Positions 1 through 57,465 of a stretch of DNA of 64,000 nucleotides are shown here, piece after piece (within the stretch, counting starts at the first letter, position 1; every line of letters begins with the position of its first letter). Made by a program: the position numbers and the translations under genes. A model generated the notes under the pieces. That model had not been told where the DNA came from, made no database searches, and was given only the letters and a program-made list of their open reading frames with translations. Source of the DNA: Pyropia yezoensis (Eukaryota > Rhodophyta > Bangiophyceae > Bangiales > Bangiaceae); the NCBI GenBank assembly GCA_009829735.1, contig CM020619.1:11398375-11462374 (forward strand), in the 5' to 3' direction.

Positions 1-207
1 AAGTTGAGTAAAGGCATCCAACAACTTGTTAGGAATGCGAGTAAGAAGTCGGCTACGAACGAAGTACGTTCACGCCGCGAGGGTGGGTCTCGACCGGTGG
101 TGGCGGTCGCCACACCCTCGGCGGAGGGGGCGGACACGTCGTCCTCGGACTCGTCGTTTTCCCCTTCGTCCTCAGATTCGGACGCCAAGTCGGCGGGAAA
201 CGAATGA
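1..207 (+). CDS. C-terminal tail of gypsy Gag (partial)
   Basis: This is an open frame entering from the left edge and ending at 205-207. It ends in a Ser/Asp-rich acidic tail (serine clusters around residues 46-60 of the visible part). Its last codons overlap the ATG of the protease frame at 204 in an ATGA arrangement, one base back in frame, which is how many gypsy elements couple Gag to Pol. No CCHC zinc knuckle is visible in the part shown. The Gag call rests on position rather than on a motif. Confidence 0.4.
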   Translation, partial: KLSKGIQQLVRNASKKSATNEVRSRREGGSRPVVAVATPSAEGADTSSSDSSFSPSSSDSDAKSAGNE

Positions 208-1253
208 CCGTTGGAGCTCGCCGTCCGAAGCTCACAACGGCAGCCTCGGCCAAGTGGGTCAAGAGGACGAACCAACCGTGCCGGATACTGCGGCGACCTA
301 AGGGAGTCCGCCCACCTCGGGTAGGACTCCCCAAGAACGTAAACCCACGTCGGGTCATCGCGGTGCTGACGGGTGAGAACTTCCAGGTGGCTGGACGGGT
401 GCAACTTGCCCCCGGCCGTGCCTGCTGTGCCCGTATCGTACTTGATATCGGGTCAGGAGCCTCCTTGATACGCAAGTCGCTATTACCAAAGGAGATGAAG
501 CTCCAACGCTGGAGGTCCAAAGCTGACCGTCTGATCGATATCAATGGTGGGGTACTTCCCATCGTTGGTGCCGTGACCCTACCAACTAGGTTGGGGACCC
601 ATGAGGTCGACGTGACCTATGGTGTAGTTGAGAATATATCGGTACCCCTGCTTCTGGGTACCCCTTATGTCGTAACACAAGTGCCTTTGATTTGTGGCCC
701 TGAGTACTGGGTCAAGTTAATGAATGGGGAGACTATCCCCATCCTTGGTAAGGGAAAGTCTGTGGCTCCTGTGACAGTCTCACAGTCGAAGCCTGTTTGT
801 TCGGTGAGGGAAGGGTTTACTGCTACCCTGCGTTTAGCCCGTAAAGTCACGTTGCCCCCCAACTCGGTGGCGCACGTTGACGTTGTAACTGATTATACGG
901 GGAACGGGTTGGTGCACCCTTACCCCCGTCTTGCTCGCAAGCACCAAGTGCATGTTGCCCTTGGCACGATGGACTCCAAAGCCGGAACCCCGTGGAGGAT
1001 CCAGGTGATGAACCTGAGCTCGTCGCCCAAGTACTTCAAGTCGGGAGCCAAGTTCGGCTATATCGACCAACACGAGGGACCGGTAGTAGCGGTCACCCTC
1101 AACGCGGGCGCAAGTAGCGACCCGAAGTCCGGAAAGGAGAAGCATCAAGCCAAGTCGGCCGCCTCTCCTCGGCCCCATGTGAACATGGAGGGTGTCCCAC
1201 CCAGGTTGAGGGTTCAAGTTGAACGCCTCTTGGACCAATATCACAAGTTGTGA
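204..1253 (+). CDS. Gypsy protease-domain ORF (5' part of Pol)
   Basis: The 349-codon frame contains a retropepsin-like segment. An Asp-Ile-Gly followed by Ser-Gly-Ala-Ser at residues 81-87 sits after a hydrophobic strand, where the catalytic D-T/S-G of aspartic proteases belongs. A second hydrophobic, glycine-containing strand (VPLLLGTPYV, about residues 147-156) fits the retropepsin fold. Ile in place of Thr/Ser in the catalytic triad is unusual. The frame ends at TGA 1251-1253 and the RT frame continues in the same phase straight after it, so protease and RT were probably one polyprotein. The TGA is the 3' arm of a perfect hairpin at 1241-1253. Confidence 0.7.
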   Translation: MTVGARRPKLTTAASAKWVKRTNQPCRILRRPKGVRPPRVGLPKNVNPRRVIAVLTGENFQVAGRVQLAPGRACCARIVLDIGSGASLIRKSLLPKEMKLQRWRSKADRLIDINGGVLPIVGAVTLPTRLGTHEVDVTYGVVENISVPLLLGTPYVVTQVPLICGPEYWVKLMNGETIPILGKGKSVAPVTVSQSKPVCSVREGFTATLRLARKVTLPPNSVAHVDVVTDYTGNGLVHPYPRLARKHQVHVALGTMDSKAGTPWRIQVMNLSSSPKYFKSGAKFGYIDQHEGPVVAVTLNAGASSDPKSGKEKHQAKSAASPRPHVNMEGVPPRLRVQVERLLDQYHKL

Positions 1254-3752
1254 GATGGTCAATTGGGACTCATGAGAGCCACCCAACACTGGATCGAGTT
1301 GAAGCCCGGTGCACTTCCTATACGCCAACAACCGTATAGGGGAGGACCCCGTTCAAGGGCCCCCGTTAAGGAGCAAGTTGCTCGCATGGAGGCCCTCGAT
1401 GTGATCGAGGCCAGTAACGCCGAGTGGGCGAGTCCGGTGGTTATCGTCCCCAAAGTTGATGGGACCCCCCGGTTCTGTATCGACTACCGTAAGCTCAACG
1501 AGAGCACGGTGAAGGACAGTTATCCCCTACCTAGGATGGACGACTGTCTGGACTCCCTGGGGGAGGCGAACGTGTTCTCTACCCTGGACTGTAACGCGGG
1601 GTACTGGCAAATTCCCATTGCCCCGGAGGACGGGCATAAAACTACCTTTACCTGTCACTGTGGTACCTACCAGTGCAACCGTCTACCGTTTGGCCTGTGT
1701 AACGCGCCGGCAACTTTCCAGCGCGCTATGGACATGATTCTGGCCGGAGTACGGTGGCAGATCTGTCTCGTGTACCTAGACGATATCATTGTGTTCTCCC
1801 GAAGTCCGGAGGAACACATTGGCCATCTTGGCCAGGTGTTCAAGCTACTTGCTGACGCCGGTGTGTCACTGAAGGCGAGTAAGTGCCACCTCTTCTCTCA
1901 AGAGGTGGAATACTTGGGACATGTTGTCCGTCCGGGGCGTCTCAGTGTCAACGAGAAAAACTTGAGGGCCATCCGTAAGGCTCAGTACCCCCGGACCCAG
2001 ACCCAGATGAGGAGCTTCCTCGGGATGTGTAACGTGTACCGACGTTTCACCAAGGGCTTCGCCAAGGTGGCGAAACCGTTGAATGAGTTAGTGAGCTCAA
2101 CGCTACCGAAGAACCTGCCTCCCCCCAGTCGGGTGGAGCAGGAATCCTTTGAGACTCTTCGGGACCTTCTGCTGAAGCTTCCTATCCTGGCTATTCCCAG
2201 GTTGGGAGGCCACTACATCCTGGATGTGGACGCTAGCTACGACCAACTTGGTTGTGCGTTGCTTCAGCAGCAGCCGGACAAGGAGTACTTGCCGGTGGGA
2301 TACTTTAGCAAGGGGCTGAACTCGGCCGAGAAGAACTACGGAGTCACGGAGTTGGAAGGACTCGCAGTCGTGTGGGCGGTGACGTCACTTCGTCAATACC
2401 TAGAGGGTGAGAAGTTCCTCATCCGCTGTGACCACCGCGCGTTGCAGTTCATCTTTAAGACGGACTGTACGAACTCTCGTCTCAACCGGTGGAGGGTGCG
2501 ACTGGCACCCTTCAACTTTGATATTGAGTACCGACCTGGCAGGCAACATGCCCTTGCCGACGGCCTCTCTCGGGTACCTACCGAGGGGCTGGACACTAAC
2601 CCAGTCGATGAGGACATCCCCATCGTGGGGGTAGTCACGCGCTCGGGTCAGGCGTTGAACCCCGAGGCGCCAGGGAACAAGAAGTACTTGCCCCTGTCCC
2701 TGGACGAGGTGGTGAAGGCCCAGGCCGAGGATCCCTTCTGCAAGTCGCAGAGGGATACACTGGATACAGTGGCGGAGACGCGGTTCTTTCTGGGAGACGA
2801 TGGCCTCCTCATGAGGAGGGGGGTATTCCAGGGGACCGAACAACTTGTCGTCCCCGCATCCCTCAAGGACAGTATCCTTGAGAGGGAGCATAACGCTCCC
2901 TCAGGTGGACACCTGGGGTCTAGTAAACTGTACCAGACCCTGAGGACCAGGTACTACTGGCCGTCCATGGTGGTGGACATCTACAGTTGGGTGGCTGCCT
3001 GCACAAGTTGTGCACAGAACCGTCTGATGGAGCGGCGGCCTACTACGGCTATGCTATTGTTCCCGGCCAAGGAGCCCTTTGCCGCGTTGGCGATGGACAT
3101 CCTTGGGCCACTGCCAGTGACCGAGGAGGGCAACCAGTACCTCCTGGTTATCTGTGACCGCTTCACGAAACTTACGCGAGCGATCCCACTGGCAGAGATC
3201 ACGGCCATGTCGGTCGTGTCAGCCTTCCTAGATCACTGGGTTGCCGCGTATGGCATTCCGGATAGTACACTATCGGACAATGGACCGCAATTTGCGTCTG
3301 TACTGTTTCAGGGAGTGCTAGATATGTTGGGGGTGCGGGCAAACTATGCCACCCCCTACCACCCACAAACTAATGGGCAGGTGGAGCGCTTCAACAAAAC
3401 TATGGTTAGGCAGCTGCGCCACTATGTGAGTGAGCACGTGAAAACGTGGGACCAATACATTTCTATTCTTACCACTGCCTACAATTCGCAGGTTCACTCA
3501 TCTACCGGGGAAGTACCCCTCGCTTTTGTGACTCCCCGTCGCGTGCGGTCTATTGCCGTGCGGCGGCCGCTCCCAACTAGGGAGGATGGTGGCAGGACGC
3601 CTACTCCTACTGAGATTAAGGCGGAGTTCGCTGCTAGGCTTGAAAACCTCATCCCTAAAGTCAGGGCTGAGATGGACAAAGCACAAAAGCGCAACAAGCG
3701 TACCTTTGACAAAAAAGGTGCGCACCGCCAAGCATGTCCCCGAGCAGGGTGA
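1254..3752 (+). CDS. Gypsy reverse transcriptase - RNase H - integrase
   Basis: Residues counted from the first Met (1263) give a complete catalytic core. RT has YLDD at 171-174 and the SPVVIVPKVDG and FCIDYRKLN blocks at about 57-79. RNase H carries acidic residues at about D323, E365, D390 and D433. Integrase has an HHCC zinc module (H543, H550, C580, C583) and the DDE triad at about D612, D672, E708, with the PYHPQTNGQVERFNK block typical of Ty3/gypsy. The frame is open upstream to 1254. It ends at 3752 after leaving its natural phase near an A-run at 3711-3716. All catalytic residues look intact, so the copy may be young despite its two breaks. Confidence 0.93.
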   Translation, partial: DGQLGLMRATQHWIELKPGALPIRQQPYRGGPRSRAPVKEQVARMEALDVIEASNAEWASPVVIVPKVDGTPRFCIDYRKLNESTVKDSYPLPRMDDCLDSLGEANVFSTLDCNAGYWQIPIAPEDGHKTTFTCHCGTYQCNRLPFGLCNAPATFQRAMDMILAGVRWQICLVYLDDIIVFSRSPEEHIGHLGQVFKLLADAGVSLKASKCHLFSQEVEYLGHVVRPGRLSVNEKNLRAIRKAQYPRTQTQMRSFLGMCNVYRRFTKGFAKVAKPLNELVSSTLPKNLPPPSRVEQESFETLRDLLLKLPILAIPRLGGHYILDVDASYDQLGCALLQQQPDKEYLPVGYFSKGLNSAEKNYGVTELEGLAVVWAVTSLRQYLEGEKFLIRCDHRALQFIFKTDCTNSRLNRWRVRLAPFNFDIEYRPGRQHALADGLSRVPTEGLDTNPVDEDIPIVGVVTRSGQALNPEAPGNKKYLPLSLDEVVKAQAEDPFCKSQRDTLDTVAETRFFLGDDGLLMRRGVFQGTEQLVVPASLKDSILEREHNAPSGGHLGSSKLYQTLRTRYYWPSMVVDIYSWVAACTSCAQNRLMERRPTTAMLLFPAKEPFAALAMDILGPLPVTEEGNQYLLVICDRFTKLTRAIPLAEITAMSVVSAFLDHWVAAYGIPDSTLSDNGPQFASVLFQGVLDMLGVRANYATPYHPQTNGQVERFNKTMVRQLRHYVSEHVKTWDQYISILTTAYNSQVHSSTGEVPLAFVTPRRVRSIAVRRPLPTREDGGRTPTPTEIKAEFAARLENLIPKVRAEMDKAQKRNKRTFDKKGAHRQACPRAG

Positions 3753-4188
3753 CTGGGTATTGGTCCACTCACACACCCCAACTGGGGGTAAGTTGGTATT
3801 CCAGACGAAGGGGCCGTACCAGGTCCTTCGTACTGATGGGCGGCGCTTCACCATCGAAAGTGACGATGGGGTCCGCACAGTGAACGGACAGGACGTGGTC
3901 AAAGTTGCACCACCGCCTGCGGGCGACCCAGCTTGGGCGCGTGCGTTGGAAGCGTGGCGCCTCCCCTCACTGCCTGCGGCCAAAAGGGGCCCGCAGGAGT
4001 ACGTGTTCGATAAGTTCATCGACCACGGCTGGGATGAGGACAATGACCGCCTCATGTTGAGGGTGCGTTGGCTTGGCTACAAAGCCAAGGATGATACGTG
4101 GGAGTATGTGGAGGACCTTCCCGCTGAGAAGGTCCGGGCCTACTGTGCCCGGAACGAGATAGACCCTAACAGCCCTCCCTCAACGTGA
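3718..4188 (+). CDS. Gypsy integrase C-terminus with chromodomain, +1 frame
   Basis: The integrase reading continues here one base forward of the preceding frame. A GPY/F-like motif (KGPYQVLRT, about 3810-3836) closes the integrase. From about 3997 to 4150 a chromodomain follows: EYVFDKFIDH, LRVRWLGY and DDTWEYVEDL are the usual landmarks, with the aromatic residues that bind methyl-lysine. This domain defines chromoviruses and is thought to steer integration to marked histones. It ends at TGA/TAG-type stop 4186-4188. The shift lies at six A residues (3711-3716); one fewer A would restore the phase, so it may be a mutation, a homopolymer read error or a recoding site. Confidence 0.82.
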   Translation: MRTAKHVPEQGDWVLVHSHTPTGGKLVFQTKGPYQVLRTDGRRFTIESDDGVRTVNGQDVVKVAPPPAGDPAWARALEAWRLPSLPAAKRGPQEYVFDKFIDHGWDEDNDRLMLRVRWLGYKAKDDTWEYVEDLPAEKVRAYCARNEIDPNSPPST

Positions 4189-4299
4189 GGGACGGCCGAG
4201 CAACAGTGCCAAGAGAGTGCTTCAAGTCGAAGTGGTACGCAGAGTGGCTTTTAACTACAGCCCTAACCCTCACACTCTCACAACAAAGGCAGCTGCCAA

Positions 4300-6414
4300 C
4301 TAGGCATGCATGCTAGACTCTCCAACCCCACGGCCCTCGCCCTCACGTGGAGGCGAGCGGCGAGACCCCCGGCGATAACGCTCCCCACCAGTCGGAGGGG
4401 CCGGCGGCTCCAAGTCGGACCCGTCGCGCCCCTCACGGTCGCGCAAGTGGCGACGACCGCGGCTACTCTTCTGCTCAGTCTTGCGCGCAAGTTGGCGACG
4501 CAGACGCCGGACCGACTCCGACTCTGACGGAGTCGAGGACTCCGAGACGGAGTAAGACAACTCGTCTTCCGACACGGAGGGAGAGCGCCGCGAGCGTCGG
4601 CGACGACGGCGAGGAGGCGAGTATGCCCGGCTCGCACGACGTTTGCCACGCCCAAGTGGGGCTGGCTGAGGCATAATAGCCCCAATGCGAGCCAACTCGG
4701 CCGTCATAAACTCCGCCACCGACTCGCAACTCGCGGTCGCCACTGCAGTACGAACGCGCTCCTCAAGTTGAGGAGTCTCGGAAGTTTGAAGGGTTGCGGT
4801 CGACGCGGCCAACCAGGAAATGGTGCGCACCAACGTGGTGATCATCATCTCTGAGGTTAGAGGCGTGGGCGGTAACACCAACTTGGGGTATACCGTCAGG
4901 AGGGTGGCCCCCATGTTGGGGGACACCGGAGTGGACGACTCAACGGCCACGCTAATCGGGATGTCCCCGTGCGGCTGGTAAGGGACAGGAGGAAGCGGAG
5001 GGGCACGCCGAGGTGGCGGGACCCGGGTGTAACTGCGACCCCGACTTGGGGCGCCCGCAGTGGGTTGAGTCATATGGTCATCATGTGAGGGCACGGCCAT
5101 AACTATGGCCTTGTCCGGGGGTGGCGCAGTGTGGCGATCCACCCCCGGGGCATACGGGTAGTCCCCGATGCCCAACCCCTCTCGTAGGACCACACGGCCG
5201 TCGTGAAGTTCACGAGCGACCCATACGAACTGGCGAAGTGCGCCATCGTCCTTGGGCCCACGAGTGGGGCGGCGCAACGTGTGCTCGATGCTCTCCCACT
5301 CGATAAACTTGTGGAGGCGGAGCATCTCCTCAAGTAGAGTGAGTTGTCCTGATGAGCACCCCTCAGCAACTAGCTGAGGGGTGAGCTGTTCCAAACCTTG
5401 GATAAGCCGGAGGGGGAGATGCCAGAGCATCCCCCGCCGCTGGACACAAGACACCCAGGTCGACATGACCTCGAGGAGCCACTGGGTGGCCAACATGGCC
5501 CACACCAGGTGATCAGGGCCAGCCGTCAACATGACGGAGCCGAAGTGGTCAAGCAACCGTGGCAGCAACGCCGGGAACCCGTAGGGGACCTCAACCTGAG
5601 GCCACCACTCGGGCTTCTTCGGATAGTACTGCTCCTTACTGGCAGCAGACTGCTGAGGAAACTCAAGTTGAGCCGAGGTCACCAAGTAGGGACCTCGCCG
5701 GAAGTCCTTCTCCATCCGCACATCAAAGTGATGAGTGTGCGGATCGGCCTCGTGAAGGTACGGGGGGCGAGTTGCCACCGCGTCCCAAGTAAAGGTCGGC
5801 AAGTCGCCGGGACCCGGGATAGTTCCCCCGCGGTCCACCATGGCCTTGGCCCGCTGTACGTCTTCGACCTCCTCGTCGTCCAGGAAGGCAAACTGGTCCG
5901 TCCTGAAGCCGGCAGGGAACCCGACCCTACGGGGATACTTCTCCCGTAGGCGGTCCCATACCCGACCCATCGCTGCGCCAAGTCGGCCACAGCGAAGAAC
6001 AGTCAACCCCTCCTCATATAGAGGCCAAGCGGGGTAAAACCACCGCCCCAAGGCCTCACGCGGGACAACTTGTCCCGCCTCCGGGGGAGATCCCGCCGTC
6101 AACCCAAAGCCGGGTGAAGCGGGAGTCCCATCCCCCGGCGCGATCGCGGAGCCCCCGCCAAAAGTCCCTGCGGGCGCTGCACCGTAGGAGGTGTCCTCCA
6201 TACGTTCGTCGAGAGAGTCCGTCTCCACCCCCGGGGTCGCCATGGCTCTCCCCAAGTTGGGGAGAGACGCCCTGGCTACAGCGGCACGAGATCCGCCTCG
6301 AGTTGAGGGGGACTCGGATCGTGGGTAGACGGGTGGCCCCCCCAGCGTGGAGCGGCCCAGTGGAAGGTGAAGGGGAGGTGGTGGTGATGGTGAAGTGCGA
6401 ACCGGGGAGAGCAA
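4300..6414 (-). CDS. 704-aa opposite-strand ORF inside the gypsy element
   Basis: This frame runs against the retroelement from ATG at 6414 to a stop at 4300, just 111 bases past the chromodomain stop. I do not recognise the product. The N-terminal 100 residues are Pro/Ser/Gly-rich. A folded-looking middle follows (about residues 120-430), with aromatic-rich stretches such as YPAWPLYEEGL and WWPQVEVPYGFPALLPRLLDHFGS. A Pro-rich linker comes next, and the basic tail is rich in Arg and Ser-Glu repeats (about 590-700), like an RNA- or chromatin-binding tail. There is no zinc knuckle, DDE or RT motif. The length and shift from folded to basic composition argue for a real protein, perhaps a Gag-like or accessory product made from antisense transcription. 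It could also be the gag of a second, inverted element. Confidence 0.55.
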   Translation of the reverse strand: MLSPVRTSPSPPPPLHLPLGRSTLGGPPVYPRSESPSTRGGSRAAVARASLPNLGRAMATPGVETDSLDERMEDTSYGAAPAGTFGGGSAIAPGDGTPASPGFGLTAGSPPEAGQVVPREALGRWFYPAWPLYEEGLTVLRCGRLGAAMGRVWDRLREKYPRRVGFPAGFRTDQFAFLDDEEVEDVQRAKAMVDRGGTIPGPGDLPTFTWDAVATRPPYLHEADPHTHHFDVRMEKDFRRGPYLVTSAQLEFPQQSAASKEQYYPKKPEWWPQVEVPYGFPALLPRLLDHFGSVMLTAGPDHLVWAMLATQWLLEVMSTWVSCVQRRGMLWHLPLRLIQGLEQLTPQLVAEGCSSGQLTLLEEMLRLHKFIEWESIEHTLRRPTRGPKDDGALRQFVWVARELHDGRVVLREGLGIGDYPYAPGVDRHTAPPPDKAIVMAVPSHDDHMTQPTAGAPSRGRSYTRVPPPRRAPPLPPVPYQPHGDIPISVAVESSTPVSPNMGATLLTVYPKLVLPPTPLTSEMMITTLVRTISWLAASTATLQTSETPQLEERVRTAVATASCESVAEFMTAELARIGAIMPQPAPLGRGKRRASRAYSPPRRRRRRSRRSPSVSEDELSYSVSESSTPSESESVRRLRRQLARKTEQKSSRGRRHLRDREGRDGSDLEPPAPPTGGERYRRGSRRSPPREGEGRGVGESSMHA

Positions 6415-6568
6415 GCTGCCGAGTGGGCAAGCTTGAGGAAAGGGGCGGTCAACGTGACCGCCTCCACATCCGCGTTACGTACTCAAGGGGGGACAGCAAG
6501 TCGCGCCCCCAACGCCGAGACGTGCGTTTACGCACCCCCTCACAGGGCCGACCGGGTCGGTCGGAACT

Positions 6569-6581
6569 GAGGAGAGGGGAG
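6569..6581 (+). other. Polypurine tract next to LTR
   Basis: Thirteen consecutive purines (GAGGAGAGGGGAG) end exactly where the LTR begins at 6582. In LTR retroelements this tract primes plus-strand DNA synthesis and always abuts the 3' LTR. Its position marks the LTR as the 3' LTR of a plus-strand element, so it belongs with the gypsy Pol and not with a minus-strand element. Confidence 0.7.
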
Positions 6582-7050
6582 TGTGGCAGTATTAACCCCC
6601 AGGTACGGGGGCAACACGTGCCATGCAAGGGGCGGCAGGCCACTAGCCTGATCCGTTCCTCCCCCTTCATTTGGGTCCGTATTCCCTAAGTTTGGGATAG
6701 TTAGCTTAGTAGTAAATCCAACTTGGATTTGAGGGTTTTCTGCATTTATCGTCTTGAATTTTCGTGTGGCCCGGTGGGCAGGTGCTGGGGTGGGAGATTC
6801 TGAGTGGCGAGATTCTGAGGGGACCCTCGGGGGATAAGGGGAGGGACAGCGGGGCTTGGCCCTGCGTCCCCGTCCCGACCAAGAAACTGTTGGACCACAC
6901 ACCATCCTCTTGTTTGTCAGTGGGGGGTTTGCCCCACAACAGGGACAGAGTGTGTGCGACTTGCACTTCTTCCGGTTCCCCCGACACGGGAGGCAGCCCT
7001 TGTACACCGCCCCAACTTGGGTGCCGTGTGTGTAAGTGGTTTTTGCCACA
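6582..7050 (+). repeat. Gypsy 3' LTR, 469 bp
   Basis: The repeat starts TGTGGCA and ends TGCCACA, a perfect 7-bp terminal inverted repeat with the canonical TG...CA ends. It is preceded by a polypurine tract. A second copy of the same length lies inverted at 7845-8313; by eye the two agree at roughly nine positions in ten. It contains two palindromic hairpins of the element's own class, at 6714-6730 (arms AAATCC/GGATTT, loop AACTT) and 7011-7021. Its right end joins copia coding sequence directly at 7051. Confidence 0.85.
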
Positions 7051-7818
7051 ATCCTGAAGCGGTTCAACATGACGAACGCCAACCCGGTGCGCCTACCGAT
7101 GGGGGTGGGATCCAAACTCCGCAAGGCGGGGGAGCCCCTCCCGACGGATGCCATCAAAACCTAGCAGGAGTTGATTGGGTCCTTGCTGTACCTGTCAGCG
7201 TGCACCCGGCCTGACCTCTCCTGTGCGGTCGGCCGGCTGTCCAGGTTTGTGGCCGCACCCACTGCAGATCACGTGGCGGCGGCCAAGACGGTGCTGCGCT
7301 ACCTGTGCGGCACGCCCGACCTGTCTCGAATGTACCGAGGGTCGGGAAAGCTGATTGGGCACTGTGACGCAGACTACGCCGGCGACCTGGACACCCGTCG
7401 ATCGACGACGGGGTACGTGTTCACGTACTTTGGGGCAGCAGTGAGCTGGGGGAGCAAGCAACAGGCCTCGGTCGCCAAGTCAACGACCGAGGCTGAGTCC
7501 GTGGCGGCGACCGCTGCGACCAAGGAAGCTGCTTGGCTTCGTCACCTTGTCGGGGACCTACCGGGCAAGGTTCCCAAGCTCACCCTCCACTGCGACAACC
7601 AGGGGGCGGTAGCGATGATGCACAACGCGGTGAGCTCCCCGCGCACAAAGCACATCGACATCGACCTCCACTTCATCCGGGAGATGATCGAGGACGGCCT
7701 GCTGGTGGTCGTCTTGATCCTGTCGGCCAGCGACCTTGCGGACATCCTCACAAAGGCTCTACCAGTGCATGCCCACTCCACTATCCGTAAGGGCATGGGA
7801 GTAGGCGACTCCCTCTGA
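7051..7818 (+). pseudogene. Ty1/copia pol remnant: RT end and RNase H
   Basis: Translation from 7051 gives the end of a copia RT (ILKRFNM and a PVRLPMG block) and then a full copia RNase H: IGSLLYLS, RPDLSCAVGRLSRF, the HCDADYAGD catalytic block, STTGYVF, the SVAKSTTEAESVA block, and the ADILTKALP end. The upstream RT, integrase and gag are missing because a gypsy LTR meets this frame at 7050/7051. An in-frame TAG at 7162-7164 sits where a Tyr codon is expected, so the piece is dead. A purine-rich GCGGGGGAG at 7831-7839 followed by TGTTG looks like the polypurine tract and first bases of the lost copia 3' LTR. Confidence 0.88.
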
Positions 7819-7844
7819 TGGACGAAGCCCGCGGGGGAGTGTTG

Positions 7845-8313
7845 TGTGGCAAAAACCACTCGCGCACGCAGCACCCAAGTTGGGGCGGTGCACAAGGGCT
7901 GCCTCCAGTGTCGGAGGAACCGGAAGAAGTGCAAGTCGCACACACGCTATCCCTGTTGTCGGGCAATCCCCCCACCAGTAAACAAGATGATGGTGTGTGG
8001 GCCAACAGTTTCTTGGTCGGGACGGGGAAGCGACGCCAAGCCCTGCTGTCCCTCCCCTTATCCCTCCAGGGCCCTCTCAGAATCTTGCCACTCGAAATCT
8101 CCCACCCCAGCACCTGCCCACCGGGCCACACGAAAATTCAAGACGATAAAATGCAGAAAACCCTCAAATCCACGTTGGATCTACTACTAAGCTAACTATC
8201 CCTTACTTAGGGAGTATGGACCCAAATGCCTGGGGAGAAACGGGTCAGGCTAGCTGCCTGCCGCCCCTTGCATGGCACGTGCTGCCCCCCTACCTGGGGT
8301 CAATACTGCCACA
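7845..8313 (-). repeat. Second gypsy LTR, inverted
   Basis: This is the reverse complement of the LTR at 6582-7050, of identical length (469 bp) and with the same TGTGGCA/TGCCACA ends. Several substitutions and small indels separate the two; the AAATCC palindrome is damaged here near 8163-8178 while the short one is kept at 7874-7884. No polypurine tract lies beside it in its own orientation and the 5-bp flanks (TGTTG and GCCGG) do not match, so it is a solo or rearranged LTR. Confidence 0.83.
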
Positions 8314-9154
8314 GCCGGCGCGCCGCCGGTCGACACTCCGAGATTCGGCGACGCTGCGGTAAAGCCCGCTGGCGTAACAACGTACGTTGCACCACCTGCC
8401 AGGCCCGTTTCTTGAGTGTTGCGACTTCGCCCGCGCCGTGGAGACACGCTGCGTGAGGTGCCTTTTGGGCCATCCGCGGAACGGTGCGAGTGTTGGCAAG
8501 GCCTGCCGGTTGCTTGCGAGTTGTGTGTTATCGTGCCGAAATGAGGGATGACACCAACACCACATCGCGGCGACGCGAATCACGCTCTTGAGCGAAAACG
8601 CGAATGCCCATAAAGTTCAGGGAAATGCTGAGCACAAGATCTCTGAATCAGCGTTAAAACTTCACACCGGGTTCGAGGATATGGGTACTGCATGAGCAAG
8701 AATCGGCTCGGCGAGTCTGTCCAGAAGGACTCCCTCCGGTGCCTCACGCAGCATCGTGCCCACGCCGAGGTTTGTGCCGACGGCCTGGTTTAAGACGGTA
8801 CGTAATCGCACCGCGCGTCCGACGGCGAGGCCGACAACACTGGGCCCTGTCGGCATTTCAGGCCCGTTCGCAGACCGCGTTCGCAGGAGGCGCACCCCGC
8901 AAATCGACGTTCCTATTGGCTGGCGGCTCGCGGCGGGGCCCCGCGGTGCTGCGCAGCACCTCAACATACGCGACGATGCCGCGTACGTTGACGGGCTGCG
9001 CCGCGCTGCGTCGCACGAGAGTTGGAGCGAGTGAGCAATATTTGTCCTGTTGAAATTCTTGCAGCGTCACTCAATTAGTTCTCGATCAGTCGTCATTTTT
9101 TTTTTTCTCGCATCGCGCGACGTAGCGGTCAGCTCTTTCCAGTCCAACAAGCAC

Positions 9155-9487
9155 TCAGCGTCTCCTGCCAAGAGCCACATCCGTTCCGTCGCCTGTGCCC
9201 AGCCACATCCTTCCATCTTCCGACCACCATGGCGTGCGACACAGCGGTGATAGTCCCCGGCGCGGGAGTCGAGGACGCAAAACGGCAACCAAGTTCTGGA
9301 CGGCGTCTGCAGGCATCCGCATCGCGCGGGCAAAGTTGGCACCGTACCGGGCCTGCACATCCTCGACAGTAACAGGTATGTTTACTTGAGGGGAAGGAGA
9401 AGCAAGCACCCCACGTCTATCGTACATGGTGGCAGCTGCAGAGATGACATGCGCCGCAGCGGCCGTCTGCCAGACAGGGAGGTACAT
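9155..9487 (-). pseudogene. Possible transposase fragment
   Basis: A 110-codon frame contains ARYGANFARAMRMPADAVQNLVAVLRPRLPRR, split here only for description. An FxxxRM stretch followed by a helix and LRPxLP is the usual look of the N-terminal part of PIF/Harbinger-type transposases (the FRM...LLxxLxPxL region). Nothing resembling the DDE core follows in any frame, and the surrounding frames are broken. This is a weak call made on one short motif. Confidence 0.22.
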
Positions 9488-10780
9488 GGCGGCTTGTCTG
9501 CCGCGAAGCAGACGAGCAGCCTTCGTGGTAGAACGGCAGTGCTTCTAAGGGACACCCTATTTCGACGCTAAGTATTCCAACATCAGTATATACTTGTATC
9601 TTTGGCGTCATAACTGCTTCTCGTGCGCCGCTGCGCGCGCCTTGTGCCTTCGCAGCTTCGGACCCCGGGGATGCACTGTTCGGCTTCTGCCAAGCGCTTC
9701 AGCGAACGGGCCTCAGGGGGGGGGGGGGTCTGAGGATCCTGAGCTTCCCTGCCTGTGGATACTATGACCTCTCCCCGACGCCTTCCGCCCCTCCCCCAAT
9801 CCCCGACATGCTCCCTGCGCCGCCGCTTCCTCCGACTCCCCGTCCCCCCCCGCCAACCGGCGCGGCATCCCCCACCCGCCTGACCCACATGCGCGCCCTT
9901 CCCGCCGCGCCCACCAACCCCCCCCCCAACCCTCTGCCGCGGCCTCCTCCGCCCCGCCCACTTACCCGCCACTAACCCCGTCGGACCTCTGTCGCCTGTT
10001 GCTGCAATCGCCGCACGACACGCACTCGACGTTCTTCTCGTCGCGGTCTGCCCCGGTCACCGGCAGAAAGGTCGCTGCCCACGCCGCCCGCCGAGCTGCG
10101 GCAACTCCTTGCGCCGGCGGTACTCGCAGGCGCCCCTCGAAGGCGCTGCTGGCGCCGGGAGGAACGCGGCGCGCTGCCGCCACCTCCCTTGGCTTCTTGA
10201 GAGTATGTTGAGCGGAGACCAGGCGTTGGAGCCTGTCCGCCGGGACTTTGCCCCCCCCGGCCCTCCGCCTGACGAGGGGGACCTGGTGACGGTCGTGCAG
10301 GCCGCCAGAGCCATCATAGCGCGGGAGTGCGTTTCGGGAGGCGGCGCAAGTGGTCGTGGCGTACAGGAGGTACCGCAGGACGCCGGGAAGAGGCGATAGA
10401 GGAGGCATCCACCCCGATGCCGCTGCTTCCAGCTCATCACCGGCACAGTCCCTGCCGCCGCACCCGCAGCCCCGGAAAGTCGCTGTCGCAGCACTTCCGT
10501 TCTTTCACGCCAGCACCCCCCAGGGACCACCCCAGCGCCTGCAAGCAGCCCCCGCGGAGCTCACCCGGACGCACGTAGCCCCCGCACCACACTTCAAACT
10601 CCAACCCGCTCCTTGTTCGCGCCCTAAGCCAGCGCTCTTTTCTGTCTGGGGCAGGGCGGCGTCGCCAGCTCCCCCCTCCTTCCCAGTACTGATTTGATTC
10701 CGATGGCGCTTTGGCGAGCGGCGCCCGCAGCGGGCGCCGCCCCCCCTGCCCGTTGCGACAGTTGATCAGTGGCGGAAGCC

Positions 10781-10896
10781 GTCCGGCGGCGGCAGCCCGG
10801 CGGCAGCGCGGTACTGGCGCCCCACGCCCCCCCACCCCGTCCGACGGCGGCAACCCGGCGGCGGCGTCGTACTGGCGCCCCACGCCCCCGCACCCA
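10781..10896. repeat. 58-bp tandem duplication
   Basis: Two adjacent 58-bp units (10781-10838 and 10839-10896) share the core GTACTGGCGCCCCACGCCCC and the GTCC-ACGGCGGC start, with a handful of substitutions. No coding role is evident. Confidence 0.7.
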
Positions 10897-11170
10897 CGTG
10901 GCAGCTCCGGGCCCTCCCCAGGGGTGCCTTGCTCACATGTGCAAAATGCACGCGGCTTCGTATAAAATACGGCGTGCATAACCCGAGCAGTCTTAGTGGT
11001 CACAATAGCCACCTTACAGAGAGAATGGGCCAATAGACTGGCTCGCACACAGCGCCGGTATCCATCTCTCGCCACACAACGCGGTCAATCTGCGTGAGAA
11101 AAGCCCCGCGACCAGGTCTCGCGTGGCGAGGTCCGACCCCCCCCCCCCCTCTGGAGAGGCCGTACGGAAG

Positions 11171-11248
11171 CCTTCGGCACGGATTCCGTGCCGATCTAGC
11201 GTGCCGAAGGGCCTCTATGGCCTGGATTGGCCGCCGTTCCAGGCCATA
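11171..11248. repeat. Two adjacent perfect foldbacks
   Basis: The first foldback pairs CCTTCGGCACG (11171-11181) with its complement at 11200-11210, and contains a competing inner hairpin (GGCACGG/CCGTGCC). The second pairs TATGGCCTGG (11216-11225) with its complement at 11239-11248 around a 13-base loop. Both are perfect. They could be a MITE remnant or a structured RNA; I cannot tell which. Confidence 0.55.
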
Positions 11249-11998
11249 TGGGCACTTCATGGTTACCTGCCGGCGAATGGTCACGGTTCCTTTACGCCAC
11301 ATGGGACAAAACTCGGAAAACTGCATTTTTGTCATCTCCAATCCGACTATGTATTTGTGATCCAATTAGTAAGCTAATAGAACTTACCCTCAATATGTGA
11401 GAGTAAACCGTGCACTTCTGGGAACGAATTGATGGCTAGCGATAGTTGTGTCGACGACTTGGTCGTCTCGTCCCCATTGGCCCCCGTCAAACGCGCTGCG
11501 CCGCGCTCTCGTCACTGCCCAGCGCAACTCATTTCCCCCACGCCCGCGCATGCGCACACGTACACCTCCGTCCGCTGCCAGACCGCGGCAGGTCGGCGCG
11601 CCCAGTGCGCAGTGGACGTTGCGCAGGACGAGCACCACCCACCCTGCACCTGCGCGGCCTGCTGGTACATACGGGGCCCGCGCGCTTTGTGCCGCGCGTG
11701 TCCGTGGGATTCACGCGCGCGTTTGCAGTTGGCCTGCTTTGGTGGCAGCGGGGTCCGGCCGGAAGGCTCGTCGCAGCCAAGCCGGGCTTCGCGCCTCTTT
11801 CCTTCCTTCTTGCCCGCATCTCCCCTTCGCCTCCTCTCGGCGCGGTACCTGACGGCGAGGGTCACCTGCGGCGCCTGGCGTTATCGGTGTCGTATTGTGT
11901 CGCGTCTCTGCTTGGCTCGGGCCGCATGCTGCCGCTGCCGTTGCGGGCCCACTCGTAGCTGCCGGTGCTGTGAGTGCCCCAAATCAGCGTGCTCCATC

Positions 11999-13701
11999 AT
12001 GGATCCGGCGTCTTCATCGAGGCGGTACGTCAGTCTGTTTCTTTCGCGGCGACCTGTGCTGCGGTGTTGTCGCACTGGTAGATGCGGTGACCTAGGGGGT
12101 GCAGCTACTGCTGTTTCTGGCCATCCTGCGCTCCTTTCTCGTTTTTTTGTGGGCAATCAGTGTGGCATGTGGTGTTCAAGTGGTGGTAACATCTGCGAGT
12201 CGACCGCCTTGTTTACTTACTCTCTCTCCGGTCGAGCACGCGTGTTGCGGCTTGTGTTTTTTGCTGCTTTTGTCTTGTTCTTCTTATCTGAACCTACCCT
12301 TTCTCTTGATGTTATGGACAGTGGTGGCGAGCTCAACGTCGACTCGATCATTGAGCGTCTGCTCGAGGTGCGTTGTTGCAGCGTGCTTGTTCTATTTGAC
12401 TGGTAGCACATTGCTCGTGGTCAGGTCGCGCACAGTGCGGTGTGTTTGAGCTGTGACCTACCATTTCGTTTTGCTAATGTCATTCTGCCTGACCCGTCCG
12501 CGTTTTCTTGCTCTTTGTCTGTCTTATGCGTGGACGCACCATTTGCTTCCTCCTCTCGTATTCCTTTACGTGTGCAGCACAAGCCGTCTGGGGGGGGGAA
12601 GAAGTCGAAGGTCCGTGGTCAGCGTCCAGGCCGGCAGGTGAACCTTCTTGAAGAGGAGATCAAGCAGCTGTGTCTGCAGGCGAGGCAAATCTTCCTCTCG
12701 CAGGCGCCGCTGCTGGAGTTGGACGCGCCCATCAAAATCTGTGGCGACATCCACGGACAGTACCACGACTTGTTGCGGCTGTTTGAGTATGGTGGCTTCC
12801 CTCCGACTAGCAACTGTACGTTTGACTCTGGGGGGACGTTTGTGTTGCATGCTGACTGTGTTTCGACTTGTCCATGAGGGCTATGACCTTTGCTGGGGGT
12901 ACAGGCTCGGAACATCTGTCGTGTTGTGACCCGGAATGGGTTAGCTGTACCATGACTCGCGTTGCAGGTGGGCTGACGTGCATGTGGTTTCTTTGGCCCT
13001 TTGTTTCCTGTCTCTCTCGCCTTGCAGTCCTCTTCCTCGGAGATTACGTTGACCGGGGAAAGCAGAGCATTGAGACTATTTGCTTGCTGATGGCCTTTAA
13101 GGTGCGCTACCCGGAAAACTTCTTTGTGCTTCGCGGCAACCACGAGTGTTCGAGCATCAACCGCATCTATGGCTTTTACGACGAGTGCCGGCGGCGCTAC
13201 AACGTCAAGCTGTGGAAGACCTTCTGCGACGTCTTCAACTGCATGCCCGTGGCGGCCATTGTGGACGAGAAGATTTTTTGCACTCATGGTGGGCTCTCCC
13301 CTGAGTTGACGTCCATGGAGCAGATCCGCCGCATCCAGCGCCCTACGGACGTGCCCGACCAAGGCCTGCTGTGTGATCTTCTTTGGTCGGACCCCGACGG
13401 CGAAATCAAGGGATGGGGCGAAAATGACCGAGGGGTCTCTTTCACGTTTGGCGGCGACATTGTGGCTCGCTTCCTGCAGCGGTTCGACTTGGACTTGGTG
13501 TGTCGCGCCCACCAGGTTGTGGAAGACGGCTACTCTTTCTTTTGCGACCGTCGCCTGGTGACCATCTTTTCGGCACCCAACTACTGCGGCGAGTTTGACA
13601 ACGCAGGCGCCATGATGTCGGTGGATGAGACGCTGATGTGCTCCTTCCAAATCCTCAAGCCAGCCGACAAGAAGAAGCTGATTGGTTTTGGCAACCAGTA
13701 G
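11999..13701 (+). CDS. Serine/threonine protein phosphatase PP1 catalytic subunit
   Basis: PP1 removes phosphate from Ser/Thr residues with a two-metal centre and is targeted by regulatory subunits. The metal-site signatures are all present: GDIHGQ, GDYVDRG, RGNHE, HGGLSP and [11 protein letters not shown]. My exon model is 11999-12024, 12322-12367, 12611-12815 and 13028-13701, with GT-AG introns between. Exon 1 (MDPASSSR) and the first join are inferred from a good donor (CG|GTACGT) and from phase; a start at the in-frame ATG 12313-12315 is the alternative. Exon 3 may instead begin at 12578, which has the better pyrimidine tract and would add 11 residues ([11 protein letters not shown]) before VRGQRPG. 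The 12611 start matches the PP1 consensus LLEV-GxRPG without insertion. The protein ends shortly after [10 protein letters not shown], as PP1 does. Confidence 0.92.
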
Positions 13702-14555
13702 GCCCAAGCGCACTGCGTGTTGCTCGACTGAGTGTGACATCTTGATTGGAGCTGTTTTCCGCCCCTTTCTCTTTCTTGTTCTTCCTCTCCCTTGGGCTTG
13801 CGTGTTTCCCATGTGAGTTGATACGTCTACCGACTGCTATGGGTTTTGGGTGCTTGTTCCAAGTGTCTGGGCGCATCAGGTGAACCTCACTGGGCAACCC
13901 TCTGCTTTGGTTCCGTTTATATCTAGCCTTACGTTTGGCAAACACCTGGAGGGCCAGAAGAGAGGCTGCGGGTGTCAAGCACACCACGTATCCTCTTGAT
14001 AGACAACCTGTTTCCCTCTTGTAGGTGTGTGCGCAGAAAAGGACTGGCTGATCAAAGATTTTGGGGTGCTATTGTGCGGGTGAGAGACTGAGAAGCGGCG
14101 ACAGGTTCCAGATGACGAAACGGTTCCTAGCTCTCACGCTGCATCGCCACACGCGACGTGCCTGGCAGCACCGACGGCGGTTCATCAGTGGCCCACTGCC
14201 CATCATGTCCCGTGGCATTGCAGGTGCAACACACCTGACACAGCACCAGGCAAGAACGCATACCCACAGCCTGCGAGGCATCAAGACCGACTCGCTATGC
14301 AAGCGCTCCTCTGGACCCTCCACGGAAACTTTAATGCGTGCATCACCAACCCGTCTGCTTTTCGCAAGACCAACAATTGCCACCTGGCTAGCAATCGCAC
14401 CTCCACACCTCTCCAGCTCTGCGACACGCTCCGTGTATAAAATCTGCTGGCAGAACACAGCATGTGCTCTCCCCTCCCCCAGCACTACTCCCCATTCCTC
14501 TGTTCCCCCATCAACCCTCTCCACGTGACCGGCTCGTCCCATGCCGCGGCACTAG
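13702..14555. other. Convergent spacer, 3' UTRs
   Basis: This lies between the PP1 stop and the HHL1-like stop, which face each other. No gene or repeat is visible. The DNA is less GC-rich than the flanks, as expected for 3' UTRs and terminators. Confidence 0.5.
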
Positions 14556-15164
14556 TCACTTGGTGTTGAGGGGGTTGGTGAGGTTGGAGAAGAAATTGGT
14601 GACGCTGGCCATGAAGCCCTCGCCTTCAACCGGTCGTGCCGCCTCTGTCACCGCCTCGTCGGGAAACTCCTTGAGCTGGTATCCGTACACAAGGTCATCC
14701 GCCACGTCCTTGAGCGTCGGGAAGAGCCGCAGCGCGCCAGTCGCCAGGTCCTTTTCGGTCGCGTAGATGGCACGTACCACCCCTCCAGACCGGGGGACGG
14801 TCAGGCTGCCCACCGGGTACCAGTTTGGCTTTTCCCCCGTATCCTCTGGCCGCCGCACCCAAATGTTGTACTCGGGCATCCCCGACGACTTCATGTCATC
14901 GTACTTGGAGGCGGCCGCGCTGCGGCGGACCGCCGTTGCCGACGGGGGGGGGGGCGCCGCCTTGGGCGGGCCAAATCCCTTTGGCGCCGCCGCCGCCGCG
15001 GGCACCGGCGCGGCTGCCGCCGGGGGTGGGGCGGCGGCCGCGTCGGGGGTGTCGGCCGCGTCGTCGTTGGCTGCCATCATCGCCGGCCGGCGGGCGCAGG
15101 TGCCGGCGGCGGCCCGCGAGGAGGAACGTCCGGGGAGCGCCGAGAGCGGGGTGACAAACGCCAT
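14556..15164 (-). CDS. HHL1-like chloroplast protein
   Basis: The 202-residue product begins MAFVTPLSALPGRSSSRAAA, a typical plastid transit peptide rich in Ser, Ala and Arg without acidic residues. A Pro/Ala-rich linker follows (about residues 35-85). The conserved C-terminal part starts near YNIWVRRPEDTG, with NWYPVGSL, a GG-hinge, RAIYATEKDL, and DLVYGYQLKEFPDE near the end. This resembles the plant HHL1 family, a thylakoid protein that helps protect and repair photosystem II in high light. The start at 15164 was chosen because it begins the transit peptide; the frame is open further upstream. The assignment is from remembered family features, not a search. Confidence 0.6.
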   Translation of the reverse strand: MAFVTPLSALPGRSSSRAAAGTCARRPAMMAANDDAADTPDAAAAPPPAAAAPVPAAAAAPKGFGPPKAAPPPPSATAVRRSAAASKYDDMKSSGMPEYNIWVRRPEDTGEKPNWYPVGSLTVPRSGGVVRAIYATEKDLATGALRLFPTLKDVADDLVYGYQLKEFPDEAVTEAARPVEGEGFMASVTNFFSNLTNPLNTK

Positions 15165-16541
15165 GGCGGCCGGCACGAGGGGAGGGGGGGCCACGGCAGC
15201 CACAGGTGGGGAAGCAGGCGGAAGGAGCCTGGCAAGAAGGACCGTCAGACGTACGTAGGTCAACGGCCAGGCTGTTGCAGGGTGTCTACGGGGGTAGAGC
15301 GGGAATCGTCCGCGGGGGCGAGGCGGGCGGAGTGACGCTACAGTTTCAGGTCGGGGAGAGGGCGCAGTGGCGGAACGGCATTGCCAGGTGCCACCGCACA
15401 CGCCCCCGGCTGGACGTGTGTGACGTGAGGTGGGCGCGGGCACCCCAGCATGCCAGCCTTCCACGTGTACGGCGCGCACGTCGCCACCTCCACCTCAGGA
15501 GTTAGGTACATACAGTACATCAGATCTCACCAAACAATTGGGTCGGCCGTTTTCTCGGCCCGTGTCGTGCCGCCGCCGTGCCGGTTCCGCCGCCGCCACC
15601 GCAAACCCCACCGCAGTCGACGGGTGCGCGTGTCCGCCCCACGGCCGCCGGCGCTCGTGGTGGCCGCTCGCCACAACAGCCCCCGCCTCCCCTCCGCACT
15701 GCTTGTTCACCTTCCGCCCCCCCCCCACCCGCCCCGCCTACACTTCTTTCCCCGGCGACGCCGTTCGCCGTGCCCCTCCCCGCGGGGCGCCGCCACAGAG
15801 CAGCCCCACGTGGGGCGTCCCCACCCGCGTCCCCGGCCGGCGCCGTCGGCACTGCCCTGCAGCGCCCCCCGCCCGCGCGCTCCGCGGCGGCCCCTGGACG
15901 CGCCCCTCCGCCACTGGGGAAGCGGGGGGTGTTGGGAGGTGGCGCTCGCTCGTCGCTGGGGGGCACCCCCTCTTGTCCTCTCGCCGCTGGGAGGCACTGT
16001 TGTTTTTGTCCCCGCCGCGGGGGCACCGCGCCCTCGCCGGGGCCGCCGCCGCCGCCGCGGCCCGCCCCGGCGGACGCCCGGCCAGGGCGGCCACGCTCGC
16101 GGGGGAGGGAGGGGGGATACGGGGGGGGGGGGGGGGGGTGAGGGCGGTGGCGGTGCGCGCGGCGGCGCGGCAGCGTGGGGGTGGGTTTTGCTGGGTGGTT
16201 GCCCCCGCGCGGGTGCCCGCCGCGGCGGCGACGGCGTCCCCCCCCCGCCGTGCAGGGGTAGGCCCAGCCGGCTGGCCGTGGCGGGCAGTGGCGCCGCGGG
16301 CGCCGCGGCGGGCGGCACGGCGCGGTGCGGGCGTGGGGTGGGTGGGGTGTCTCCCCCGCAGCCGCGGCAGTGGCGGCGGCGGCTTGCCGCCCTCGCCAAT
16401 GCGCCGACTCTTCCCTCCCTACACATACGGGGACAGGGGGGGCGGCGCGGGGCACCTGGCGAGGCGGCGACGCGCCGCACCGTGTTCCTCCGTTGGCTCT
16501 GCTCTGCCCCCTCTCTCCCCCTCTTCCCCCCGGGTGGGTTT

Positions 16542-56181: not shown

Positions 56182-57465
56182 TCACACCAGGTCTGGGTGC
56201 GTCGCGCCCGTCTGGGCCACCCACTTGGCCAGCAGCGCCGGGCTGGCCATGTTCCCCCCACATACCACAATGACCATACCACCCCCCGGCTCGCGCTCGA
56301 CCTTCCCCTCCCCCTCGCCGCCGGTGGCGGCGGCGGCGGCGGGCGGGTGGTCAGCCGCCCACGTGAGGCCACCCGCGACGGCCGCACCACACGCCACCTC
56401 CACCAGCACCCGCTGCTCGACGGCGAGCGCCAAGCACCCCTCCACCGCCGCCCGGTCTGACACAACGACGCTGTCCACGCCGCCGCCAAAACGGGCGGCG
56501 CCGCCACCGCCGACGCCGTCGCCGCTGCCGTCACAACGCAGCAGGTCGCGGGCCGCGTCGGCCACCCGCAGGGCGCCCAGCGACGACGCAATAGACGTGA
56601 TGGCGGGGAGCGTCATGGGCACGGTGCCGCCCGTGGCGGCGGTTGCCGCAAACGACGCGGCGCCCTCTGTTTCCGCGGCCACAATGCGGACGCGGCCCCA
56701 CGCGGCGGCGGTGGCGGCAGCATCGCCGCCGAGGCCGTCCCCGCCGCCGCCGCCACCACCGCCAGGCGCGGCGGCGGCACGCGCCAGCCCCCGGGCGGTG
56801 CCGAGCAGCAGCCCCCCCCCCCCCACCGACACGACCACCGCCCGCGGCGGCGGGAGCCCCGTCCCCGGCCAGTCGGTGACCAGCTCGTCCACCCACGACG
56901 CAGCGCCCTCCCAGATGCGCTCGTCGTCAAACGGGGACACGTACACCGTGGCGCCCCCCCCCGCCGCGACCACCGCCCGCGCCGCCGCGTCGGCCTCATC
57001 CCAAACGGCGCCCGCCACCACCACCCGCGCGCCCGCAGCGACGAGGCGGGCCCGCATGTAGGCGGGCGTCGTGGACGGCACGTAGATGGTGGCGGCAACG
57101 CCCAGGGCGGCGGCGGCGGTCGCCACCGCCGCCCCCGCGTTGCCCCCCGAGGAGCACACAAAGTGCGGCGCCGCGGGGCCGTCGCTAGCGGCGGCGGCCG
57201 CCGCCGCCGCCGCCGTCGTCACCACCGACAGCAGATTGCCGTGGCCGCGGAGCTTGTACGACCCCGACGCCTGGGCGGTCTCCATCTTTAGGTGGACGGG
57301 CATGCCGGCGGCGGCCGACAGGGCGGGGGAGTAGACCAGGGGGGTGTGCCGGTGGAGGGGGGCGCGGCGGGACGCCGCCGCCGCCGCCGCCGCCGCCGCC
57401 GTCGGGCCCAACGTCCCAGACGGCGCCGCCGCGTGGGGGCCAGGCGCGGCGGGGGGCGCCGCCAT
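56182..57465 (-). CDS. L-serine/L-threonine dehydratase, copy 2
   Basis: This is a paralogue of the gene at 51665-53008 on the same strand. The active-site segment is closer to the family norm: SGSYKLRG with Lys-71 and CSSGGNAGAAVATAAAALG. The phosphate loop VGGGGLLLG and the C-terminal VVCGGN match copy 1 exactly. The last 753 bp (56191-56943) show no difference from copy 1; upstream of that point the two diverge at roughly one base in eight. The start at 57465 aligns with copy 1. The frame is open to 57849, giving an Ala/Arg/Pro-rich N-terminus that could be a plastid or mitochondrial presequence. It is divergent from SF3a60. Confidence 0.87.
   Translation of the reverse strand: MAAPPAAPGPHAAAPSGTLGPTAAAAAAAAASRRAPLHRHTPLVYSPALSAAAGMPVHLKMETAQASGSYKLRGHGNLLSVVTTAAAAAAAAASDGPAAPHFVCSSGGNAGAAVATAAAALGVAATIYVPSTTPAYMRARLVAAGARVVVAGAVWDEADAAARAVVAAGGGATVYVSPFDDERIWEGAASWVDELVTDWPGTGLPPPRAVVVSVGGGGLLLGTARGLARAAAAPGGGGGGGGDGLGGDAAATAAAWGRVRIVAAETEGAASFAATAATGGTVPMTLPAITSIASSLGALRVADAARDLLRCDGSGDGVGGGGAARFGGGVDSVVVSDRAAVEGCLALAVEQRVLVEVACGAAVAGGLTWAADHPPAAAAATGGEGEGKVEREPGGGMVIVVCGGNMASPALLAKWVAQTGATHPDLV

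Follow-up and report, generated by a model that had tools for sequence, protein, structure and literature searches.

Dispersed stem-loops with family-dependent loop lengths in a Ty3/gypsy retrotransposon clade of Pyropia yezoensis

MS2-type dispersed packaging signals are described as many genome-wide stem-loops that vary around a short apical loop motif and lie in both coding and non-coding sequence (PMC6281560). The psi-type signals of retroviruses and Ty1 are structures in the RNA of long terminal repeat (LTR) elements and lie near the 5' end (PMC8396678, PMC4974528), while RNA virus genomes such as those of coronaviruses have stem-loops across coding sequence (PMC7642675). Even for yeast elements, the way in which an LTR retrotransposon selects its RNA is poorly defined: Ty packaging sequences "have not been precisely defined" according to a review, in which Ty3 (gypsy) is reported to need untranslated region or POL sequence for packaging (PMC4974528). 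Here we describe an array of short stem-loops in a Ty3/gypsy LTR retrotransposon of the red alga Pyropia yezoensis. The window analyzed is a stretch of 64,000 nucleotides (assembly GCA_009829735.1, contig CM020619.1, positions 11,398,375 to 11,462,374, forward strand). Positions 1..7050 (+) hold the 3' three quarters of the hairpin-bearing element. As a whole, the element measures ~9.4 kb, its start lying outside the window on the upstream side, near C2:11396048.

The element shares with chromoviruses of the Ty3/gypsy group the order reverse transcriptase (RT), RNase H and integrase, all identified by Pfam matches within one open reading frame (ORF), pol (1263..3752, +), as well as paired LTRs with 98.5% identity across 468 bases; its chromodomain match is weak and falls below the cut-off. 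The hairpin array sets it apart, and seven more distant gypsy loci of the genome are without such an array. Like MS2-type signals, the stem-loops are many and dispersed and have a common loop motif, and the WYAR tetraloop of a sister family, D, resembles the MS2 (x)xYA loop (PMC6281560). The differences are that the carrier here is an LTR retrotransposon, that binding by its capsid protein is putative, that loop lengths differ between sister families and that G-U pairs are not favored; the likeness is one of design, and we claim no membership. Like the psi-type signals, the hairpins would be structured RNA of an LTR element, possibly for its own Gag. Unlike psi, which lies near the 5' end, the hairpins spread from LTR to LTR, and unlike the structures of coronavirus-type genomes, their loop length and letters are restricted and family-dependent. 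No account of such hairpins in retrotransposons was found among the titles and abstract openings listed, which for part of the search were the first 12-15 of 36, 83 and 3,269 papers, in a library with few subscription papers.

The preliminary description of the window had listed 16 hairpins with an AAGTN or AACTN loop. A scan for perfect arms of at least 4 bp around an AASTN loop (AAGTN or AACTN) recovered all 16 with perfect arms and added eight, giving 24 in 1-7100; the full scan found one more in 7100-16000 and none in 16000-64000. Among the 16 hairpins (all coordinates on the + strand), loop AAGTC is carried by 4-bp stems at 183..195, 4220..4232 and 5797..5809 and a 5-bp stem at 2737..2751. 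Loop AAGTT occurs on 4-bp stems at 1212..1224, 1241..1253 and 1371..1383, 5-bp stems at 3000..3014 and 5201..5215, a 6-bp stem at 4759..4775 and an 8-bp stem at 6246..6266, and loop AAGTG on stems of 4 bp (4650..4662) and 5 bp (5231..5245). An 11-bp stem with loop AACTA lies at 5357..5383, and loop AACTT tops a 7-bp stem at 6060..6078 and a 6-bp stem at 6714..6730, the latter within the LTR. The eight additions are AAGTA hairpins at 57..71 (5 bp), 2678..2690 and 3507..3519 (4 bp each), AACTA hairpins at 3338..3350 and 4294..4306 (4 bp each) and 3570..3584 (5 bp), and 5-bp hairpins with loops AACTG at 3775..3789 and AACTC at 4554..4568. RNA folding of eight short stretches, which included the hairpins at 4759, 5357, 6060, 6246 and 6714, formed the named hairpin in seven; in the stretch 1212-1253, one of the two hairpins was formed. 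In AASTT loops, the folding program closes one extra A-U pair.

As the preliminary description had proposed, these hairpins are far above chance: 24 were seen against 0.2-0.5 in Markov shuffles (means of 0.18, 0.28 and 0.50 for orders 1, 2 and 3, 200 shuffles each, maximum 3). Under codon-preserving shuffles (300 per ORF), pol had 7 AASTN hairpins against a mean of 0.19 (maximum 2) and an antisense ORF of 704 aa (4300..6414, -) had 9 against 0.23 (maximum 2). The protease-side ORF (204..1253, +; 349 aa) showed no excess of AASTN alone (1 seen, mean 0.15, maximum 2), and the stretch 3750-4187 had 1 against 0.13 under codon-preserving shuffles. Among hairpins of any sequence with stems of at least 5 bp in 1-7100, odd loops were enriched, with 23, 37, 34, 31 and 21 hairpins at loops of 1, 3, 5, 7 and 9 against 8-10 in 40 simulations and 14, 15, 12 and 12 at even loops of 2, 4, 6 and 8; one long stem is also scored at neighboring odd loop lengths, so that the odd-length counts are not independent. 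The hairpin feature itself is beyond reasonable doubt. A search for known RNA families of Rfam 15 with both strands of 1-8400 gave no match up to an E value of 1.

The loop preference of the preliminary description stood, and its restriction to AAGTN and AACTN did not. The core is A[CG]T, which occurs in 36 of the 100 pentaloop hairpins of 1-7100, and GACTT, GAGTT and AACGT loops are used in addition. Around the 249 A[CG]T centers of 1-7100, the Watson-Crick pairing rate was raised from offset 2 to about 11 (0.34, 0.46, 0.41, 0.45, 0.39 and 0.35 from offset 2, then 0.30-0.32) and was 0.25 from offset 13. No comparable rise was seen around the 718 A[CG]T centers in 8300-64000 (rate 0.25-0.29) or, within the element, around T[CG]A, G[CG]C, C[CG]G and A[AT]T centers; ACG and TGT centers showed a slight one. 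G and C performed alike as the loop-center base (hairpins at 42/169 and 33/157), and A and T poorly (2/82). The fraction of centers forming hairpins depended on the outer loop pair, amounting to 20/41 for A-T, 10/20 for A-A, 0/16 for T-T and 0/58 for G-C or C-G. The core A[CG]T is symmetric, as a double-stranded palindromic site would be, yet none of the 58 centers with a G-C or C-G outer pair is a hairpin, which favors an open pentaloop over a double-stranded site.

Counting A[CG]T centers with at least four of five stem pairs, we found 53 in 1-7100 against 4.6 in order 2 shuffles; in the protease-side ORF, A[CG]T-centered hairpins numbered 8 against 0.94 expected. The upstream part of the element (L060:849-3175; 5' LTR and gag side) holds 22 more against 1.8 (maximum 6 in 200 shuffles), so that the whole element has roughly 70 hairpins beyond chance. 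In steps of 500 bases, 13 of the 14 steps of window positions 1-7000 contain two to six hairpins, and 1501-2000 contains none. The three steps of 7001-8500 contain 0, 1 and 1, an inverted LTR copy being located there, and 8501-12000 contains none. The limits of the array thus coincide with the LTRs, the interior being full and the outside near-empty, and the array is specific to the chromovirus and absent from the adjacent copia piece, as the preliminary description had stated. The inverted copy of the chromovirus LTR (7845-8313, -; 90% identical) lies just past this copia RNase H piece (7171-7818); the LTR hairpins are preserved in part there, and their loops have changed.

Fifteen related loci of the same genome were drawn from the top 150 matches obtained with the integrase zinc domain, and more came from a further search. 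With the element of the window as family A, three sister families have hairpins in excess: B (L045, L051, L052, L055-L057), whose pol is ~66% identical to that of A, C (L053, L054, L064; ~61%) and D (L058, L061-L063; 63% to A and 70% to C). More distant gypsy loci (L043, L044, L046-L050; 31-37% identical, several evidently one family) have no hairpin excess. The families differ in loop length, a point that the preliminary description had not foreseen: 5 in A, 5, 7 and 9 in B, 3 in C and 4 and 6 in D. Over ~2.3 kb of pol and 100 codon shuffles each, the z scores for loops of 3 to 9 were 5.3, 1.9, 3.7, 1.7, 4.0, 1.0 and 1.7 in A; 5.0, 1.0, 5.4, 3.3, 4.4, 1.9 and 1.3 in B; 6.9, 2.2, 6.2, 3.4, 3.3, 1.7 and 1.1 in C; and 0.7, 7.9, 0.1, 5.4, 2.7, 3.8 and 3.4 in D, which is shifted to even loops. 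No such peak was present in the seven distant gypsy frames, in four copia ORFs (from 4 of 11 loci) or in four host frames, namely the longest stop-free frames of the window, which are putative genes; z exceeded 2 in 6 of these 105 values, all of them gypsy, the largest being 3.0. These comparisons contradict a genome-wide feature, and the outcome that the preliminary description had named as refuting it, equal density in shuffled or host coding sequence, did not occur.

Loop lengths were also counted in stretches that had played no part in defining the loops. The gag side of A has 16 hairpins at loop 5, compared with 5 at loop 4 and 6 at loop 6; the upstream part of B has 16, 22 and 18 at loops 5, 7 and 9 versus 7, 9 and 9 at loops 4, 6 and 8; and the downstream part of D has 21, 23 and 19 at loops 4, 6 and 8 versus 4, 8 and 8 at loops 5, 7 and 9. 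The shuffle control for such stretches covers A only, and family C has no stretch outside that used for its definition. The 1.5 kb downstream of B showed no such peak; there (L059:1-1500), counts climb with loop length, reaching 13, 10 and 14 at loops 12-14, and do not peak at 5-9. Two further observations concern single copies. Past about base 2780 in element orientation, the family C copy L053 contains a family A piece (~95% pol protein identity), probably a nested insertion or a rearrangement. In the pol of family D (L058), 23 of the 36 counted even-loop hairpins stand in one codon register, with first and third codon positions pairing; this was not seen in A, B or C.

Loop letters are family-dependent in part. 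The motifs read from the hairpins were AASTN (loop 5) for A, NTACTCN (7) for B, TAN (3) for C and WYAR (4) for D. In pol, sites of the A motif formed hairpins in 9/23 cases in A, 4/24 in B, 1/13 in C and 0/10 in D; those of the wider B motif ACTC in 7/29 in B and 0/7 in each of A, C and D; those of the C motif in 9/101 in C, 1/96 in A, 1/101 in B and 2/124 in D; and those of the D motif in 13/48 in D, 0/41 in A, 0/47 in B and 3/43 in C. The hairpin rate in the own versus the other families differed with p values of 0.009 (A), 0.017 (B), 0.0006 (C) and 3e-6 (D), those of B, C and D being flattered because these stretches had themselves supplied the motifs. Outside the defining stretches, the A motif formed hairpins at 12/25 sites in the gag of A (other strand 12/29), the D motif at 8/52 downstream in D (other strand 3/28) and TACTC of B at 0/5 upstream in B (other strand 2/4). 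A and B have a common core and differ mainly in loop length, and C and D stand clearly apart.

The preliminary description had further held that the arms co-vary between copies, which in the strict sense was not borne out. The 29 other copies of family A that were retrieved are about 97% identical in pol DNA, one copy compared in detail has a single change over 60 stem sites, and the hairpins of the 66%-identical family B mostly lie elsewhere. The pols of A and B, which are of the same length, have 15 and 22 hairpins with only two center columns in common. When a distance of up to four columns was allowed, 6 of the 19 hairpins in A coincided with one in B (1.8 on average in shifted controls, which reached 6 at most), and the other five family pairs have 1-3 coincident hairpins (controls 1.6-2.1). 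A site near column 643 is common to all four families and lies on protein letters invariant in the four. Within families, six pairs of copies revealed neither clear compensation nor a clear case of recent hairpin birth, the difference rates in stems and outside being 0.017/0.025, 0.040/0.035, 0.065/0.107, 0.037/0.047, 0.040/0.036 and 0.044/0.052. The stems bear no significant excess of unique amino acid replacements in any of the four families: stem and other codons had 8/54 and 27/345 in A (p 0.12), 8/76 and 39/335 in B, 4/61 and 28/335 in C, and 7/66 and 33/338 in D, and positions that do not vary among the other three families are as frequent at stem codons as at the rest. Hence the families keep the density or number of hairpins and the loop type but not their place, and they make use of the freedom at silent sites. 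Turnover of place with density kept fits interchangeable sites.

Two scans of viral contigs found no relatives. A scan of bacterial genome contigs with the four pol proteins found two contigs, L069 and L070, filed in bacterial metagenome-assembled genomes (MAGs) of Moorena and Robiginitomaculum. Both are probably eukaryotic contaminants. L070 (3.4 kb; 56% identical, residues 1-136) has 23 triloop hairpins versus 3.8 (z 9.8), and its two ORFs have triloop z scores of 7.0 and 6.9 over codon shuffles. The 1704-codon gag-pol ORF of L069 (50% identical) is without excess (z -1.4 to 0.8). A loop-5 excess in L069 (z 4.1) is largely due to a repeated hairpin unit that occurs nine times past base 6299; these pentaloop hairpins (L069:6299-7951, Moorena MAG) have near-identical 7-bp stems and loops CTACG, CTGCG or CTTCG, and the unit is a different thing from the hairpins of the family.

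We tentatively suggest that the stem-loops are many interchangeable candidate sites at which a protein of the element, probably Gag, would bind genomic RNA. The nucleic acid that acts through the roughly 70 short stem-loops, which extend from one LTR to the other, is most likely the genomic RNA, and selection would keep them mainly where sequence is non-coding or changes are silent. Loop length is particular to each family of the clade, and so, in part, are the loop letters. Putative binding to these sites would let the protein, by preference Gag, recognize and condense its own RNA. Because families within one host differ in loop type, the factor is expected to be one of the element and not of the host. 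A CCHC knuckle pattern, as expected of a chromovirus Gag, lies on the gag side of copy L004 and is in keeping with this proposal; in the copy of the window, the scanned pieces end within the motif. Gag packaging had been one option of the preliminary description and is likewise our first choice, as a presumption.

Several results weigh against this proposal. RNA stems should tolerate G-U pairs. Among 74 single interior stem mismatches, G-U and A-C were equally frequent (14 each; background 43 and 50 of 253), and in L070 they numbered 11 and 13 of 44, both higher than at loops of 2 and 4. The bias between strands is uneven: AASTV versus BASTT sites formed hairpins at 28/82 and 10/47 over the whole element (p 0.16) and symmetrically at 6/16 and 6/20 in gag, and the D loop in the unused stretch did not differ significantly from its other strand at the counts given above (p 0.74). 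The equal use of G and C at the loop center, with A and T nearly absent, is unusual for a protein that reads one strand. Moreover, the loop letters of A and B overlap, the A motif forming hairpins at 7/18 sites in the upstream part of B. Our first idea, a strictly strand-specific loop, was weakened by the gag side and the other-strand counts.

It is possible, though we hold it with greater reserve, that the loops form a code, each family having a loop length, and to some extent loop letters, that no other family uses and that co-diverge with the family's protein, so that sister elements in one cell could tell self from non-self; such a code might be read on complementary DNA (cDNA) and not on RNA. 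Sister families with different loops in one genome constitute a natural experiment, and sequence alone yields candidate sites by the dozen, so that own-versus-foreign recognition becomes directly testable. The loop-length scan asks for nothing beyond sequence and is applicable to any retroelement library.

Because of the G-U and symmetry results, a reading in which single-stranded cDNA acts stays alive, albeit as an unlikely one: hairpins on either or both strands would be bound by nucleocapsid, integrase or RT, or would compact and protect the cDNA. It would accommodate the finding, made in two independent counts, that G-U (or G-T) is no commoner than A-C, the strand symmetry in gag and across family A as a whole, and the equality of G and C at the loop center. 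It is opposed by strand bias in A, where A-A outer pairs gave 10/20 hairpins against 0/16 for the reverse T-T, and purine-purine pairs 28/90 against 5/52 (p 0.004, a contrast chosen afterwards), and in the pol of D, where 13/48 sites formed hairpins versus 5/61 on the other strand (p 0.01).

Two further readings, about equal to each other, seem less probable still. In one, hairpins within a single genomic RNA or on two of them would pair through their loops (kissing) and thereby dimerize or condense the RNA, the loop being read by no protein. The common A loops AAGTT and AACTT are complementary, G- and C-centered loops are about equally used, and Ty1 RNA is reported to dimerize via kissing loops (PMC5454406). 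However, partner loops are missing in A, AAGTA giving 4/8 hairpins versus 0/9 for TACTT and AACTA 6/11 versus 0/3 for TAGTT. The triloops of C and L070 and the tetraloops of D are, moreover, short for kissing. In the other, a host protein or silencing pathway would select the hairpins, which recruit a host factor or conceal the RNA from one. Nothing specific speaks for this beyond the fact that the element has to act in host cells, and four families in the same host have different loop lengths, the feature being missing from other gypsy and copia elements there.

A mutation bias, for example fold-back copying by RT at hairpin starts, that makes perfect arms without selection is a much fainter prospect. 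The mismatch types do resemble plain decay and the hairpins do turn over in place, but arm copying should alter amino acids, and unique replacements are not significantly enriched at stem codons, which coincide with invariant positions as often as other codons do. The six copy pairs offered no clear recent hairpin birth. Chance, base composition or codon usage found no support and is contradicted by the Markov and codon shuffles, the other elements and the host frames, which leaves it practically no likelihood.

The remaining parts of the element were annotated as follows. The protease of the protease-side ORF was assigned by eye, there being no Pfam match at 0.001. An ORF at 3553..4188 (+) has the weak chromodomain match (PF00385, E 1e-4, 22.6 bits against a cut-off of 25.1), a polypurine tract read from the sequence (6569..6581, +) stands ahead of the LTR, and the 3' LTR (TGTGGCA...TGCCACA) occupies 6582..7050 (+). 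The antisense ORF lies between the chromodomain and the 3' LTR, and the hairpins run on through it; neither Pfam nor PHROGs gave a match to it, and the family B stretches L045 and L059 contain no relative. As a cause of the hairpins, this ORF was rejected, since they also occur outside it and the B stretches have no relative of it. The pol protein had at least 55 scored matches, nearly all of them 96-98% identical. The frame is broken between the protease side and pol in the window's copy and forms a single long open frame in many others. Two candidates for non-autonomous copies with the same LTR (L065 and L066) turned out to be ordinary copies. Weak dUTPase-like matches, both below the Pfam cut-offs, were located upstream of RT in the L058 ORF and in L070:1621-3408, and the protease side of the window may hold a similar stretch. 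Elsewhere in the window, two tRNA-Ser (GCT) genes (51971-52054 and 56488-56571, -) are located ~4.5 kb apart.

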